A model generated the notes under the pieces. The model made no database searches. It was not told where the DNA came from and saw nothing but the letters and a program-made list of their open reading frames with translations. Shown here in pieces: positions 23,402 to 63,653 of a DNA stretch of 64,000 nt. Made by a program: the position numbers and the translations under genes. The stretch lies in assembly GCF_963378085.1 (NCBI RefSeq), contig NZ_OY726395.1:186001-250000 (forward strand). The letters run 5' to 3'. The stretch is from Mycolicibacterium sp. MU0050 (lineage in GTDB: Bacteria > Actinomycetota > Actinomycetes > Mycobacteriales > Mycobacteriaceae). Position 1 is the first letter of the stretch, and every line of letters starts with the position of its first letter.

Positions 23402-23892
23402 TGGCGAGGCTCAGCGCGGGGGTGCTGCTGTACCGGTTCGCGGTGGGGAGTAGCGGGGGCGCTGCGGGCGGGGAACTCGAAGTCCTGCTCGCCCATCCCG
23501 GCGGCCCATTCTGGGCGCGCAAGGACGAGGGCGCGTGGTCGGTCCCGAAGGGGGAGTACGGCCCGGATGAGGATCCATGGGCCGCCGCTGCGCGGGAGTT
23601 CGCCGAGGAACTCGGGCTGCCGGTGCCCCGCGGGGAACGGCTGGACCTCGGCGAGGTCAAGCAGGCCGGCGGGAAGGTGGTCACGGTGTTCGCCGTCCAC
23701 GCGGACTTGGACATCACCGAGGCCCGCAGCAACACCTTCGCCCTCGAGTGGCCCCGCGGCTCGGGGCGGATGCGCGAGTTCCCCGAGGTGGACCGGGTGG
23801 CGTGGCTGCCGGTCGAGACCGCGCGGGCCAAGCTGCTCAAGGGCCAGCGGCCCTTCCTCGACCGCCTCCGGACCCACCTCGCCGAAAGGTGA
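23401..23892 (+). CDS. NUDIX hydrolase
   Basis: A 163-residue Nudix protein whose box reads as GEYGPDEDPWAAAAREFAEELGL, the GX5EX7REXXEE pattern, about 46-68. WSVPKGE upstream of the box resembles diadenosine-polyphosphate or diphosphoinositol hydrolases. ATG overlaps the wax-ester-synthase stop (TGATG). The stop codon lies inside a dispersed repeat (AGG TGA AG), so the repeat defines the C-terminus. Confidence 0.9.
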   Translation: MARLSAGVLLYRFAVGSSGGAAGGELEVLLAHPGGPFWARKDEGAWSVPKGEYGPDEDPWAAAAREFAEELGLPVPRGERLDLGEVKQAGGKVVTVFAVHADLDITEARSNTFALEWPRGSGRMREFPEVDRVAWLPVETARAKLLKGQRPFLDRLRTHLAER

Positions 23893-23942
23893 GTTTGGGC
23901 CGGTTTGTGCGAGTGGTTTCCGGCATTCCGTCGATCTCGGCG
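23881..23942 (+). repeat. GTGA-hairpin repeat, copy A
   Basis: A member of a dispersed family with the shape GCCCAAAC-GTGA-GTTTGGGC, then GTGCGAGT, TTCCGGC and CGTCGATCTCGGCG. The 5' hairpin arm is overwritten by the last NUDIX codons (GCCGAAAG), leaving two mismatches in the stem. The remaining spacer to 24012 is short and geneless. Confidence 0.75.
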
Positions 23943-24012
23943 ACACGCTCAGGCCTGAAACGGCAGCGACGGCGCACCCGCGGGGGCGCGCCGTCGCCGG
24001 AAGGTGCTGCGA

Positions 24013-25826: not shown

Positions 25827-27795
<1,969 letters not shown>

Positions 27796-27804
27796 GCCCA
27801 CCCC

Positions 27805-27868
27805 GCGCCCAAAGGTGAGTTTGGGCCGAAAAGTGCGAGTAGTTTCCGGCTTTTCGTCGATCTCGGCG
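27805..27868 (+). repeat. GTGA-hairpin repeat, copy B, with duplicated 5' part
   Basis: A full element, with stem GCCCAAAG/GTTTGGGC (one mismatch) and loop GTGA. A second copy of only the first 13 bases (GCCCAAAGGTGAG) lies at 27784-27796, where it supplies the tgt stop codon. The 8-bp gap between them suggests partial duplication or two insertions. Confidence 0.75.
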
Positions 27869-27875
27869 TGGAGGC

Positions 27876-30522: not shown

Positions 30523-30590
30523 CCGCGAGCGTGCGCGTCCCCGGTCCGACACGCCGACCGAATCCCGTGGTCTGCGCACGCTCGGCGCGA
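30523..30590. repeat. dispersed 68-bp repeat with terminal inverted arms
   Basis: Fills nearly all the spacer between the transporter ATPase gene and the amine oxidase gene. Its ends carry an 11-bp perfect inverted repeat, CGAGCGTGCGC and GCGCACGCTCG. A degenerate copy lies at 16421-16488. A transcript of either strand could form a long hairpin. Confidence 0.65.
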
Positions 30591-45018: not shown

Positions 45019-45031
45019 GGCACACCTCCGT

Positions 45032-45076
45032 GGCCCCGTCTTGTCGCTGTCCGGGTACGGCGGCCCCCTCGTCCGG
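45032..45076 (-). promoter_or_regulatory. guanidine-III riboswitch
   Basis: On the minus strand the three conserved blocks of the ykkC-III class occur in order: CCGGACGAGG, GCCGTACCCGG and ACAAGACGG, with the closing GGGGCC. The aptamer ends 8 nt before the GGAG of the gdx ribosome site, fitting control of translation. TATCTT at 45086-45081 would start transcription at the first aptamer bases. Confidence 0.9.
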
Positions 45077-45180
45077 TGTCAAGATATGACGGCCTTCACG
45101 CTAGCACCGGCCGGCGTCGCCGCGATGGTGAGATTTGCCACCACCGCCGCGGGACCGGCGGTGCTGCGGCGCAGTCGATT

Positions 45181-49711: not shown

Positions 49712-50323
49712 ATGTTTGAGGGTCCGGTTCAAGACCTGATCGACGAGCTGGGCAAGCTGCCGGGAATCGGCCCGAAGAGCGCGCAGCGGATCGCGTTTCA
49801 TCTGTTGTCGGTGGAGCCGCCCGACATCGACCGGCTGACGGCGGCGCTGGGCCGGGTGCGCGACGGGGTGACGTTCTGCGAGGTCTGCGGCAACGTCTCC
49901 GATGAGCAGCGCTGCCGGATCTGCGCCGACCCCCGCCGCGACGGCACCCTGGTGTGTGTCGTGGAGGAACCCAAGGATGTGCAGGCCGTCGAGCGGACCC
50001 GCGAATTCCGCGGCCGCTACCACGTCCTCGGCGGCGCGCTGGATCCGCTGTCCGGGATCGGGCCCGAGCAGTTGCGAATCCGCGAGTTGCTCAACCGGAT
50101 CGGGGAACGCGTCGACGGGGTGGACATCGCCGAGGTGATCATCGCCACCGACCCCAACACCGAGGGCGAGGCGACCGCGACGTACCTGGTGCGCATGCTG
50201 CGGGACATCCCCGGGCTGAGCGTGACGCGCATCGCCTCGGGCCTGCCGATGGGCGGCGACCTCGAGTTCGCCGACGAGCTGACGCTGGGCCGCGCGCTGG
50301 CGGGCCGGCGCGCCATGGCCTGA
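49712..50323 (+). CDS. recR: recombination mediator RecR
   Basis: A 203-residue DNA-repair protein: helix-hairpin-helix ([18 protein letters not shown]), C4 zinc finger ([16 protein letters not shown]), Toprim domain with VVEEPKD and [15 protein letters not shown], and a C-terminal Walker-B-like tail. With RecO it loads RecA at gaps. The dispersed repeat copy C starts 11 nt after its stop. Confidence 0.94.
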
Positions 50324-50333
50324 CCCCACCTTC

Positions 50334-50397
50334 GCGCCCAAACGTGAGTTTGGGCCGCTTTGTGTGAGTAACTTCCGGCAATACGTCGATTTCGGCG
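50334..50397 (+). repeat. GTGA-hairpin repeat, copy C
   Basis: The stem is perfect: GCCCAAAC-GTGA-GTTTGGGC, an 8-bp stem with a GNRA-type tetraloop in RNA. The rest follows the family pattern (GTGTGAGT, TTCCGGC, CGTCGATTTCGGCG). It lies between recR and the DUF559 gene, and is mirrored by copy D at the other end of that gene. Confidence 0.8.
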
Positions 50398-50441
50398 CGA
50401 GGCCCGACGGTGTTGTCATGCCCGTCGGCAACCATGCGCCC

Positions 50442-51356
50442 ATGACGGAGATATTTCTTGGCAGGGAGGCCGTGGGAGACGGGCTGCGGCAAAGAGATCT
50501 ACGGCGGTTCTACCGCTCGGTGTTTCGGGGTGTGCATGCTCCCAAATGGGCGGCCCTGACGTTGCAGGACCGCACGACGGCGGCATGGTTGGCGACGGAC
50601 CGCACCGGTGTGATCGCGGGGATCGCGGCGTCGGCGCTGCACGGTGCGGAATGGGTGAAAGACACCGAGCCGATCGAGGTCCTCGCGGGGGACCGTCGGG
50701 GACAGCCCGGCCTGATCGTGCGCCGCGACCGGATCGGTGACGACGAGCGGACCGTCATCGCCGGTCTGCCCGTGACCACCCCGGCGCGCACCGCCTTCGA
50801 CCTGGGCCGTCACCTGAAGCGCCCGGAGGCACTCGCGCGGATGGACGCCTTGATGCGGGCGGCGCCCTACGCCGTCGACGACGTCCAGGCGCTGGCCGCG
50901 CGCTACGGCCCGGTTCGCGGCGTGCGACAACTCCGGGAATTACTCCCGCTGGTCGACGCAGGTGCCGCGTCCCTTCCCGAAAGCCGCCTGCGGCTGCGGC
51001 TGATCGACGATGGACTGCCGGTGCCGGAGACTCAGATCGCGGTGTACGCCGACGAGGGTTGGTTGGTGGGGTACCTCGACATGGGTTGGCGCGGAATCAA
51101 ACTCGCGGTGGAGTACGACGGCGATCAGCACCGCACCGACCGTCGGCAATATGTCCGGGACATCCGCCGCCTGCCGCTCATGGAGAGTCTGGGATGGGAG
51201 GTGGTGCGGGTGGTCAAGGAAGACCGCCCGGCGGAGGTTCTGCAGCGGGTACGAGCCGCTTACCTGAGACTGACCGACGTCGAGACGGACGATTTTGCGG
51301 AAGTTACTCGCAAAAACTGGCCCAAACGTGAGTTTGGGCGAGAGGGGGCGGCCTGA
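50442..51356 (+). CDS. AbiEi-like/DUF559 endonuclease-fold protein
   Basis: A 304-residue protein. The N-terminal half resembles AbiEi antitoxin-type winged-helix regions (LRQRDLRRFYRSVFRGVHAP, AALHGAEW, TPARTAFDLGRHL). The C-terminal half is a DUF559/Vsr-like PD-(D/E)XK-type domain (VEYDGDQHRTDRRQYVRDIRRLPLMESLGWEVVRVVKEDR). ATG 50442 is chosen; in-frame GTG 50364 lies inside repeat C, and ATG 50418 is an alternative. The last ~20 residues are encoded by repeat copy D. This family is multi-copy in mycobacteria and its function is unknown. Confidence 0.82.
   Translation: MTEIFLGREAVGDGLRQRDLRRFYRSVFRGVHAPKWAALTLQDRTTAAWLATDRTGVIAGIAASALHGAEWVKDTEPIEVLAGDRRGQPGLIVRRDRIGDDERTVIAGLPVTTPARTAFDLGRHLKRPEALARMDALMRAAPYAVDDVQALAARYGPVRGVRQLRELLPLVDAGAASLPESRLRLRLIDDGLPVPETQIAVYADEGWLVGYLDMGWRGIKLAVEYDGDQHRTDRRQYVRDIRRLPLMESLGWEVVRVVKEDRPAEVLQRVRAAYLRLTDVETDDFAEVTRKNWPKREFGREGAA
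51278..51340 (-). repeat. GTGA-hairpin repeat, copy D, inverted
   Basis: Copy D lies in reverse orientation, overlapping the 3' end of the DUF559 gene. The order reads GACG-like tail, GCGGAAG, TTACTCGC, then the hairpin. The hairpin arms are perfect, and its loop still reads GTGA on the plus strand, unlike the rest of the element. The gene's TGA is 14 bases past the repeat's end. Confidence 0.75.
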
Positions 51357-52064
51357 CTAGACGCGGCGGGGCGCGGCCAACCGCTCGCGGCGCAACTGCT
51401 CCACCTCGGGCAGATCCAGCGGCGGCAGCGGGCCCACCACCTTGGCCAGCAGATGGTCGGCCAGTTCCGGATTGCGGGCCAGGCAGCAGCCGTGTAGATA
51501 GGTGGCCACCACGCTGCCCTGCACCGCGCCGTCGTAGCCGTCCCCGGCCCGGTTGCCCGCCCCCTTGGTCACCCGCGACAACGGTCGCGCCCCGGACCCC
51601 AAAACTGTTCCGCCGCGGTGGTTTTCGAAGCCGGTCAGCGGCTGGGTCAGGCCGTCGATCAGCGGCTCTGCCGCCACCTCGCCGATGCTGCGGACCTCCT
51701 GCGGGCTGGTGGTGACGTCCAGCATCCCCACCCCGTCGACGCGTTCGCCGGCCGAGGTCTCATACCAATGCCCGAGCACCTGGATGGCCGCGCAGATCGC
51801 CAGCACCGGGGCCCCGCGCTCGGCGGCGCGCTGCAGGCCGGGGTAACGCAGCAGGTGCTTGGTGGCCAGCCGCTGCGCGTAGTCCTCGGCGCCGCCCAGC
51901 GCGTAGAGATCCAACGACTCCGGCACCGGGTCGGCCAGCGTGATCTCGACGATCTCGGCGTCGATGCCGCGCAGCCGCAGCCGCTGCCGCAGGACCACCG
52001 CGTTGCCGCTGTCGCCGTAGGTGCCCATGACGTCGGGTAGCACCAACCCGATCCGGACGGTCAT
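51357..52064 (-). CDS. gatD: lipid II glutamine amidotransferase subunit GatD
   Basis: A 235-residue class I glutaminase. Catalytic Cys91 is in VLAICAAIQVLG; the His is in VATYLHGCC. Together with MurT it converts D-isoglutamate to D-isoglutamine in lipid II. ATG overlaps the murT stop (ATGA), so the complex is made together. Homologue of the gene once named cobQ2 (Rv3713). Confidence 0.94.
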   Translation of the reverse strand: MTVRIGLVLPDVMGTYGDSGNAVVLRQRLRLRGIDAEIVEITLADPVPESLDLYALGGAEDYAQRLATKHLLRYPGLQRAAERGAPVLAICAAIQVLGHWYETSAGERVDGVGMLDVTTSPQEVRSIGEVAAEPLIDGLTQPLTGFENHRGGTVLGSGARPLSRVTKGAGNRAGDGYDGAVQGSVVATYLHGCCLARNPELADHLLAKVVGPLPPLDLPEVEQLRRERLAAPRRV

Positions 52065-62525: not shown

Positions 62526-63653
62526 ATGCGCCGAAACGTGAGTTTGGGCCGCAAAGTGCGAGTGGGTTTCGGCATAGCGTCGATCTCGGCGTTGCTGGCG
62601 GCGGCCCCGGCGGCCGCCACGCCCGAGGTGCAGCTGCAGCCCGGGCAGGTGTTGCGCATCGGGCCGATCGCCGGGACCGGGACACCGACCCGGGACTATG
62701 GCATCGGCGCGACCGACCTGTGCGAGTTCATGGAGTTCCCCACCGAGCTGCTGCAGGTGTGCGGCGACAGCTTTGCCGGTCCGGGGGTGGGGCTGGGCCG
62801 CTGGTTCTCGCCGATCGCGCTACACGTCGACCGGTCCTCGCTGGGTGCGCCCGACGGCATCCGCTACACGGGCGTCACCGGGATCGACGCGCCCCTGCTG
62901 GACGAGCCGACACCACCCGGCTGGTCGCAGCTGCCGTCGGGCGTGATCGAGATCAACCGGCAGAACTACCTGCTGATCACCACCACCCACCGATTGGTGC
63001 CGCAGGGCTCCCGATTGGTGAAAGCCGAAGCCGCACAGGGCCGTTGGCTGACCGTGCCGGGCTCGCATCGGCCCCCCGAGCACGCCGACGGGCGGCAGTC
63101 GCAGGTCAGCGGCTACTACGACCCGATCCCGACTCCGGACTCGGAGACCGGCTGGGTCTACATCGTGGCCAACAACTTCGACCGCAGCGCGCCGGTGTCG
63201 CTGTACCGCGTGCCGCCCGGCGAGTTCACCGACCGGGCCGCTTGGCAGGGCTGGTCGGCGCTGCCGGGCCCCGACGGCGGGTGGGGCAAGCCCCCCACGC
63301 CGCTGTGGCCCGACCTGGTGGGGGAGATGAGCATCCGGCAGATCGACGGCAAGACCGTGCTGTCCTACTTCAACGGCAGCACCGGGAACATGGAGGTCCG
63401 GGTGGCCGACGACCCCACCGGACTGGGCACGGCCCCGGTGACCACGGTGGTGCGCGCCGACGTGTGGCCGGACCCGGCCGAACACCTACCGCCGCCGCAG
63501 GACAACCGGCTGGCCCAGCCGTACGGCGGCTATATCTCGCCGGCCTCCACGCTGGAGGACGTGCGGGTGTTCGTCAGTCAGTGGAACACCGAGTCGCGCG
63601 AGCACGCGCCGTACCGCGTCATCCAGTTCGCGGTGCACCCGTACCGGCGGTGA
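62526..63653 (+). CDS. DUF4185 secreted protein (Rv3707c-like)
   Basis: A 375-residue protein with a signal peptide (about 1-31, APAAA-TPEV) and a beta-rich DUF4185 domain resembling five-bladed propeller folds (LPSGVIEINRQNYLLITTTHR, GWVYIVANNFDRS, GEMSIRQIDGKTVLSYFN). Homologue of Rv3707c by position and fold. Residues 1-22 are encoded by dispersed repeat E. The ATG precedes the repeat's first base by 2 nt. Enzymatic activity, if any, is unknown (distant glycosidase-like propellers). Confidence 0.85.
   Translation: MRRNVSLGRKVRVGFGIASISALLAAAPAAATPEVQLQPGQVLRIGPIAGTGTPTRDYGIGATDLCEFMEFPTELLQVCGDSFAGPGVGLGRWFSPIALHVDRSSLGAPDGIRYTGVTGIDAPLLDEPTPPGWSQLPSGVIEINRQNYLLITTTHRLVPQGSRLVKAEAAQGRWLTVPGSHRPPEHADGRQSQVSGYYDPIPTPDSETGWVYIVANNFDRSAPVSLYRVPPGEFTDRAAWQGWSALPGPDGGWGKPPTPLWPDLVGEMSIRQIDGKTVLSYFNGSTGNMEVRVADDPTGLGTAPVTTVVRADVWPDPAEHLPPPQDNRLAQPYGGYISPASTLEDVRVFVSQWNTESREHAPYRVIQFAVHPYRR
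62528..62591 (+). repeat. GTGA-hairpin repeat, copy E
   Basis: The family pattern is complete (GCCGAAAC-GTGA-GTTTGGGC, then GTGCGAGT, TTTCGGC, CGTCGATCTCGGCG), with one stem mismatch. It lies 11 nt after the asd stop and encodes residues 1-22 of the DUF4185 protein, including its basic and early hydrophobic signal segments. Confidence 0.8.

Follow-up and report, generated by a model that had tools for sequence, protein, structure and literature searches.

The 64,000-nucleotide (nt) stretch of Mycolicibacterium sp. MU0050 analyzed here (contig NZ_OY726395.1, positions 186,001 to 250,000; hereafter the window) carries a DUF559 nuclease gene that is bracketed by two copies of a short repeat. We propose, with a probability of roughly two in three, that this locus belongs to a family of ~1-kb mobile elements of Actinomycetes whose nuclease acts on its own terminal repeats. 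An earlier note on this DNA had likened the locus to a nuclease-plus-terminal-repeat mobile cassette with the layout of the repetitive extragenic palindromes and their associated tyrosine transposases (REP/RAYT), and that proposal is supported by the enrichment of repeats at DUF559 genes, the co-variation of repeat and protein and the empty sites described below. The anatomy of the units, the pairing of repeat and gene, the lineage-specific repeats with their dispersed copies, the non-homologous sites of the units, the gene- and repeat-free sites in relatives, the conserved active-site-like motif and the predicted fold are all read from sequence.

Both repeat copies were confirmed at the ends of the DUF559 gene where the earlier note had placed them. 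The 20-nt hairpin GCCCAAACGTGAGTTTGGGC occurs with the same letters at 50336-50355 and 51320-51339, and a covariance model (R1), built from 29 genome copies and comprising 67 aligned columns, recovered both copies. The arms around the gene (50324-50397 and 51278-51351) are 74 nt each, inverted and 73% complementary. An 18-nt hairpin sought with up to 3 mismatches was matched five times in the window versus 0.03 expected, and 0 of 100 shuffles reached five. The upstream copy (copy C) consists of a hairpin with a stem of 7 base pairs (bp), GCCCAAA-CGTGAG-TTTGGGC, followed by a tail with the core TGTGAGT and CGTCGATTTCGGCG. The description of the two copies as an inverted pair holds for the ~45-nt tails but not for the hairpin, which runs in the same direction on the plus strand in both copies; relative to the tail, the hairpin loop has two forms, GTGAG and CTCAC, one found in copy C and the other in copy D. 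The downstream copy (copy D) encodes, as had been claimed, the C-terminal end of the protein, about residues 278-300 of 304. The start codon, assigned by fit to homologues, is ATG 50442, which places all of copy C upstream of the coding region; GTG 50364 was rejected as the start because ATG 50442 fits the homologues instead.

The repeat-gene-repeat layout was found across Mycobacterium, a genus taken broadly here and including one locus from an unplaced Actinomycetes bin. A DUF559 relative was present at E 1e-10 in 118 of 118 genus genomes, from which the best 30 DUF559 loci were kept, together with the best 80 of 247 stretches encoding a relative in named genomes. The upstream and downstream flanks (200-nt windows) of each gene were aligned with each other in both orientations, which was feasible for the 109 of these 110 loci with enough flank. 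Scores of at least 20, 30 and 40 were reached at 79, 62 and 46 of the 109 DUF559 loci, respectively, versus 10, 0 and 0 of 279 other genes of those loci. Enrichment of repeats at DUF559 genes, which had been set beforehand as the test of the cassette proposal, was therefore strong (62/109 versus 0/279 at score 30), and 54 of 71 clusters kept the pair at score 20 when the genes were clustered at 80% DNA identity. Gene controls were preferred to cross-pairing within the genus, where repeat families are shared among related loci and unmatched flanks therefore often pair (of 3000 pairs, 360 reached score 20 and 159 reached score 30). That the pairs are chance matches or generic intergenic hairpins near gene ends is scarcely credible. 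Genomes with high G+C content are rich in hairpins near gene ends, and single weak loci may still be due to chance, but the comparison with control genes at score 30 refutes this explanation for the set as a whole, and the upstream and downstream copies are alike in sequence, not in shape alone.

The paired stretches have a median aligned length of 68 nt, many are near-palindromes, and their sequence varies by lineage. By best score, 30 of the 79 pairs are inverted and 49 are direct; both orientations score at least 20 in 48 of the 79, because many repeats are near-palindromic. A central core like ACTCGCACTT is found in 29 of the 79 paired repeats and GACACGCC in 14. The stop codon falls inside the aligned downstream repeat stretch at 57 of the 67 loci checked, a pattern that includes the window, as if the repeat often supplied the end of the gene. 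Three repeat families are folded much more stably than their shuffled sequences (z -9.57, -4.17 and -11.97); folding of another, named after locus L208 of this genome, is unremarkable (z -0.37; L and G numbers label loci and genomes, respectively). Inverted R1 copies, i.e., repeats of the window type, are located at both ends of L094-L096, L098-L102 and L124-L128 (L124 and L128 duplicate L099 and L102, respectively). For L097 (at a contig edge), L103 and L129, a clear copy was found at a single end, and L132 has two weak R1 matches, both on one strand.

Each enzyme lineage has a repeat of its own. Repeat similarity tracked protein identity over 67 loci (Spearman 0.40), a value that 0 of 1000 permutations reached; the protein comparison kept 67 of the 79 paired loci, after 14 of the 110 loci had been set aside for internal stop codons or for lack of the motif and L151 and L175 for a wrong reading frame. 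Among 107 locus pairs with similar repeats, which are not independent, 85 share neighbor genes and 22 show none shared, with 8 of the 22 involving a locus with only 1.5 kb of flank. In L172/L182, the clearest of seven pairs inspected, homology starts and stops at the outer edges of the repeats. The genome of MU0050 (G000) has eight DUF559 relatives (a ninth match proved to be a copy of the repeat), and in addition to the window gene, bracketing pairs are found at L206, L207, L208 and L210. With 40 of 103 candidates scored, the L208-type repeat occurred at 32 or more places, its two flanks included, and the matches listed for the L206, L207 and L210 types were 3, 6 rows and 1, respectively, the last being L210's own upstream copy.

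For the window-type repeat, R1 found 31 copies at or above 65 bits, the level from which copies were counted, in this 5.22-Mb genome; the next match scored 46 bits and all others 33.6 bits or less. We noticed that the strong copies are spread unevenly: five of the 31 are in the 64-kb window, and only one (at 2341559) lies within ~1.97-3.89 Mb of the contig. The link between repeats and DUF559 genes that the earlier note had proposed stands for lineage-specific repeats, but not for the window repeat in general, which flanks one of the eight relatives in this genome; of 30 loci with this repeat, 2 lie near a DUF559 gene, and these are the bracketing pair itself, so that proximity to DUF559 is not a general property of the solo copies. 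When up to 43 candidates were scored per genome, ten or more window-type copies were present in 9 of the 10 genomes that encode a window-type DUF559, compared with 8 of the 108 that do not (Fisher p 2.5e-8). It is very doubtful that DUF559 is a passenger, caught between two repeats that are moved in trans by an unrelated transposase. The layout of a single locus would look alike in that case, and the 8 of 108 genomes with many copies and no window-type DUF559 would be in keeping with it; however, the same gene family would have to be caught repeatedly, with a new repeat each time, across a bacterial class, while control genes are not caught. The passenger and chance explanations both fit badly.

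The dispersed copies prefer gaps between convergent genes. As judged from crude gene calls, 14 of the 26 classifiable window-type loci (30 in total) are in such gaps (baseline 0.18, p 3.8e-5), as are 9 of the 21 classifiable L208-type loci (22 in total; baseline 0.18, p 0.007). This preference would also be expected if the repeats were operators and terminators of a domesticated regulator; the AbiEi-like domain would then recognize palindromes at the promoter of its own gene, and the dispersed copies would be regulatory or 3'-end elements. Proteins of the AbiEi family bind inverted repeats upstream of their own operon, and the N-terminal part of the DUF559 protein matches AbiEi. Such a role would not account for the matching repeat downstream of the gene, the invariant nuclease motif, the lineage-specific repeats or the non-homologous sites, and we consider it improbable.

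The family extends beyond the genus. Of 197 genomes sampled across the class, 10 of them from the genus, 136 were matched by a profile of 38 proteins. Outside the genus, 20 loci were read and 16 were counted, with flank windows of 300 nt versus 200 nt within the genus; L282 (a contig fragment), L299 (no open reading frame with the motif) and L287 and L290 (contig edges) were left uncounted, although L287 had earlier scored 40. The loci's own flanks scored at least 25 in 12 of the 16, versus 5 of 240 cross-pairs between different loci, and at least 30 in 9 of the 16 versus 1 of 240. Among these repeats are long palindromes (56 nt in L286) and short inverted arrays, such as TTGATCATGCAG in L294. 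Seven of them were joined into a single query and searched against eight genomes, which gave at least 123 matches in G146 (many overlapping in arrays), 80 in G289 (a palindrome, counted on both strands at each place), 53 in G176, 35 in G252, 26 in G166, 14 in G129 and 11 in G233, and none in G000, which has other DUF559 lineages. Among the matches listed, the copies in each genome fall wholly or mainly on the repeat of its own enzyme. No match to the family was found in 50,697 phage records, and the five matches in plasmid records were all below 60% identity.

Sites with and without the cassette, a comparison the earlier note had called for, were obtained for two other units: L100, which encodes a window-type enzyme at a site other than recR in G053, and L139 of M. 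chubuense. The flanks just outside the repeats of each unit were joined and sought in 297 genus genomes. Among the matches listed, 13 genomes aligned across the junction for L100 and 31 for L139, with junction lengths that differed from the joined flanks by -57 to +11 and -5 to +37 bases, respectively. The unit's repeats were absent from 13 of 13 and 31 of 31 of these junctions, where the best scores against them were 10 and 11, inside the range (up to 12) that covers 95% of random 75-nt windows. In the alignments viewed (12 for L100 and 6 for L139), two convergent genes almost abut, and 3 of the 12 L100 junctions contain a short local duplication. We read these repeat-free sites as probable evidence for insertion of whole units at the L100 and L139 sites, a direction of change that is inferred from the alignments. 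In 11 other listed genomes the two L139 flanks matched separately, with gaps of ~0.6-8.8 kb, none of them solo-sized; by coordinates, a DUF559 relative lies inside the gap in G026, G036 and G098, and none was found in the gaps of G018 and G383. Comparisons of the L061/L163 and L048/L125 sites hinted at differences between solo repeats and units, but these were not exact.

The window unit itself lies between recR and cobQ2. A DUF559 relative is located within 1.5 kb of recR in 16 of the 30 recR loci read, and the repeat families differ among them. The earlier note had cautioned that the gene may be old and the repeats later arrivals; later arrival is a poor fit with the co-divergence of repeat and protein, whereas the recR-cobQ2 site itself is old (16/30 loci). 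For M. tuberculosis Rv3714c, the gene that the earlier note had placed at the same site, an antisense transcript has been described (PMC8210147). At L225, L226, L233 and L241, ~460-490 bp of other DNA replaces DUF559, and this DNA looks alike by eye in L225, L233 and L241; the convergent recR-cobQ2 gap therefore receives other DNA too. In G004, two separate partial DUF559 matches (C1:5571368-5574829) close to recR (5575716) suggest a split or decayed unit.

The recR-cobQ2 site also bears on homing, in which the enzyme would cut a solo repeat and repair from a repeat-gene-repeat donor, with the repeats as homology arms, would copy the gene in. The best structural match of the nuclease domain is a homing endonuclease with a target of ~60 bp, and the site has units in some species and gene-free, solo-like repeats in two others. 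In addition, a repeat of G062 is 75% like the solo repeat at the recR site of G070, and ~45 bp separate it from the matched portion of a DUF559 gene. The repeat was nevertheless missing from 44 of 44 listed joined-flank genomes at the two unit sites, which would require either that units also insert into naive sites or that the repeats too were lost, and the multiplication of solo repeats is left unexplained. As a full account of the locus homing is unlikely, but homing into solo repeats may occur in addition to the spread of whole units proposed here.

The DUF559 protein is predicted to consist of an AbiEi-like N-terminal part and a C-terminal nuclease domain of the Vsr type. A Pfam scan of the window protein detected only MTES_1575, DUF559 and AbiEi families, PF04480 with 20.8 bits (cut-off 20.6) and PF18741 and PF09407 under the cut-off, and no HUH tyrosine transposase domain. 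The AlphaFold2 (AF2) model has a mean pLDDT (predicted local distance difference test) of 89.2, and its best structural matches are Vsr-like and AbiEi-like; for the Vsr-type domain, the best match among the top 1000 chains listed by Foldseek is the homing endonuclease I-Bth0305I. The DUF559 relatives have invariant acidic and histidine residues, which are candidate counterparts of the EDxHD residues of 3r3p. In the source annotations, family members are named hypothetical, DUF559 or AbiEi-family antitoxin proteins.

Upstream of the gene, TGTCGG was found just before the start codon at 49 of 110 loci versus 5 of 110 controls, and in the alignment the motif takes the form TGTCGGTG-N8-CAcnAT, with the start codon after it. 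It resembles P1, the promoter of RecA-independent DNA-damage induction linked to PafBC, whose published consensus is tTGTCRgtg-8nt-TAnnnT (PMC5656591). The pattern TGTCRG-N10-[TC]ANNNT was present upstream at 53 of 107 loci versus 0 of 107 control windows, a count that is partly fitted because the motif, with C allowed at the first -10 position, was defined after the loci had been viewed; the core TGTCRG alone occurred upstream at 62 of 107 loci, compared with 14 of 107 control windows and 11 of 107 when the opposite strand was read. In the window, the TTGTCR element and the spacing fit P1, the gtg is absent, and A replaces T at the first -10 position. As a separate observation, a motif like a DnaA box (TGTGGATA or T.ATCCACA) was found just upstream at 19 of 108 loci (L130, L135, L146, L153, L157, L158, L161, L174-L177, L186-L188, L193, L195, L197, L200 and L202), whereas none of 108 control windows and none of 108 downstream windows contained it; the motif may connect the gene with the initiation of replication.

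The pairing of a single enzyme with a single repeat in many copies is the hallmark of REP/RAYT systems (PMC3733652), and we therefore propose that the nuclease targets the repeats of its own unit and thereby mobilizes it. A unit would comprise, in order, a terminal quasi-palindromic or hairpin repeat of ~60-65 bp, a short promoter, one DUF559 nuclease gene and a second repeat that often overlaps the stop codon. The AbiEi-like part would bind, and the Vsr/EDxHD-type domain would cut, the repeat of its own lineage; cutting would move or copy the whole unit and also yield solo repeats, which would settle mainly in short gaps between convergent genes. As a guess, the joining step would be break repair, possibly end joining. 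Because about half of the loci carry the P1-like motif, activity would rise upon DNA breaks. Repeat binding, repeat cutting, induction by DNA damage and joining are all inferred steps.

Several observations weigh against this proposal. No pair was detected at 30 of the 109 genus loci at the sensitivity of the flank test, and three of the eight relatives in this genome (L204, L205 and L209) have no bracketing pair. Eight genomes without a window-type DUF559 carry at least 10 window-type copies, which are either orphan repeats or accompanied by an enzyme not recognized as window-type. The window repeat folds only modestly in comparison with shuffles (z -1.70), and RNAalifold did not choose its 7-bp stem. 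By eye, no target-site duplication was seen in the junction alignments, in which the relatives are ~71-79% identical, and sites with a solo repeat may be missed, as the selection used alignments that span the junction. The DUF559 gene at recR-cobQ2 is old and has been retained by many species, so the window unit may now be immobile. In two of the 14 other recR loci, only 82 and 111 bp separate recR from cobQ2, with hairpin-like sequences of other repeat families; one is convincing against shuffles (z -4.56; in genome G070, where four matches to its sequence were found) and one is not (z -1.26). Finally, the strict P1 consensus TTGTCRGTG-N8-TANNNT was found at 0 of 107 loci.

G067 (at least 43 copies) and G051 (21 copies; 87% complete) carry window-type repeats without a recognized window-type DUF559, possibly as orphans whose enzyme was lost. 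A function of the window repeat as an RNA structure was considered and is unsupported, because RNAalifold gave a different consensus structure in which 0 of 13 pairs were compensated. The Rfam scan of the window at gathering thresholds found four known RNAs, none at the repeat; among the RNA features of the window is a Guanidine-III riboswitch at 45030-45095 on the minus strand (RF01763, 48.7 bits). The rep-PCR primers of M. intracellulare, as far as they are given in the portion of PMC10117815 available to us, did not match the repeat by eye. The features of the window are listed in Table 1, where window positions equal G000:C1 coordinates minus 186000; directly before the solo copy at 27805 is a partial second hairpin half (CGCCCAAAGGTGAGCCCAC, about 27785-27805). 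The gene names recR and cobQ2 are presumed, by comparison with M. tuberculosis.

Table 1. The DUF559 unit, dispersed repeat copies and neighboring genes in the window.
Feature	Position	Strand	Basis and remarks
Repeat copy C, upstream terminal repeat	50334..50400	+	R1 83.8 bits, all 67 positions; among the 31 genome copies at 65 bits or more
Putative promoter, similar to P1 of mycobacteria (DNA-damage promoter, RecA-independent)	50413..50435	+	By eye; TTGTCATGC-8 nt-AACCAT, then ATG 50442
DUF559 protein, 304 aa; AbiEi-like N-terminal part and C-terminal Vsr/EDxHD-type nuclease domain (~177-280)	50442..51356	+	Pfam, AF2 and structural matches
Repeat copy D, downstream inverted terminal repeat overlapping the last codons of the gene	51275..51341	-	R1 70.4 bits, all 67 positions
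Solo copy, window-type repeat	23879..23945	+	R1 78.9 bits (G000:C1:209879-209945)
Solo copy, window-type repeat	27805..27871	+	R1 84.8 bits (G000:C1:213805-213871)
Solo copy, window-type repeat	62528..62594	+	R1 77.2 bits (G000:C1:248528-248594)
Solo copy, L208-type repeat (L208 at G000:C1:3830072)	30524..30585	+	BLAST 87% identity, query 118-178 (G000:C1:216524-216585)
recR, left neighbor and reference for site comparison	49712..50323	+	Open reading frame; homologues in 115/118 genus genomes
cobQ2-like gene, right neighbor, convergent with recR	51357..52061	-	tblastn; same protein beside recR in relatives

In REP/RAYT systems, a palindromic or terminal repeat lies on each side of a nuclease gene and may also be scattered in many copies, and several such families may be found per genome (PMC3733652). 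The DUF559 units share with REP/RAYT, REPtrons and TIRtrons a gene flanked by two copies of a dispersed palindromic repeat. The REP/RAYT enzyme is, however, a Y1 HUH tyrosine transposase, whereas that of the DUF559 unit combines a Vsr/EDxHD-type domain with an AbiEi-like part. REP repeats have a tag, GTAG (or CGTC), at the repeat end; the ~65-nt consensus of the window family (29 copies) has no GTAG, and its CGTC is within the tail, not terminal. The main text of PMC3733652, as far as available, does not mention mycobacter, actinobacter or corynebacter.

Other known systems share parts of the unit. The fold of the catalytic domain of I-Bth0305I, an EDxHD homing endonuclease, is predicted to be shared with the DUF559 protein; I-Bth0305I is the homing enzyme of a mobile intron (Protein Data Bank entry 'Mobile intron protein'), whereas the DUF559 gene is free-standing and bracketed by repeats with dispersed copies. 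A homing gene interrupts its own target, while the empty alleles of two DUF559 units are repeat-free in 44 of 44 listed genomes, with solo sites possibly missed. Vsr repair nucleases share with the DUF559 protein the fold and conserved residues of catalytic type. VsrA of Caulobacter carries a DUF559 domain and was reported to cause a DNA-damage response, and no association with repeats appears in the portion of that report available to us (PMC12907096). The neighbors of the window gene are recR and the cobQ2-like gene, neither of them a methyltransferase, and the AbiEii toxin gene that is adjacent in AbiE toxin-antitoxin systems is likewise lacking from the window unit. With insertion sequences and miniature inverted-repeat transposable elements (MITEs) the DUF559 units share terminal inverted repeats (30/79 inverted by best score). 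Myt-1, a structured stem-loop family of 72 nt and 75 copies in M. tuberculosis, is like the window repeats in size, copies and structure, by its description alone in the available part of PMC2267715. Among the papers listed in searches of open-license literature, none linked DUF559 genes to genomic repeats, which is weak evidence of novelty.

We regard it as slightly better than an even chance that these units form a separate class of mobile DNA in Actinomycetes, in which Vsr/EDxHD-type nucleases spread their own lineage-specific palindromes, perhaps upon DNA damage, without a known transposase. Through such nucleases, genomes would come to contain solo repeats by the tens or more, most of them in gaps where convergent genes meet. 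If so, a family present in 118 of 118 sampled Mycobacterium genomes and 136 of 197 class genomes would gain a testable job, and part of the short repeats scattered through these genomes would gain a source. The units would parallel REP/RAYT but would have evolved independently and around an unrelated enzyme, which would allow general rules of repeat-enzyme systems to be asked for; as every lineage has a single enzyme matched to a single repeat of ~60 bp, recognition specificity is open to mix-and-match experiments in vitro. The link to damage promoters would further tie the spread of repeats to DNA breaks.
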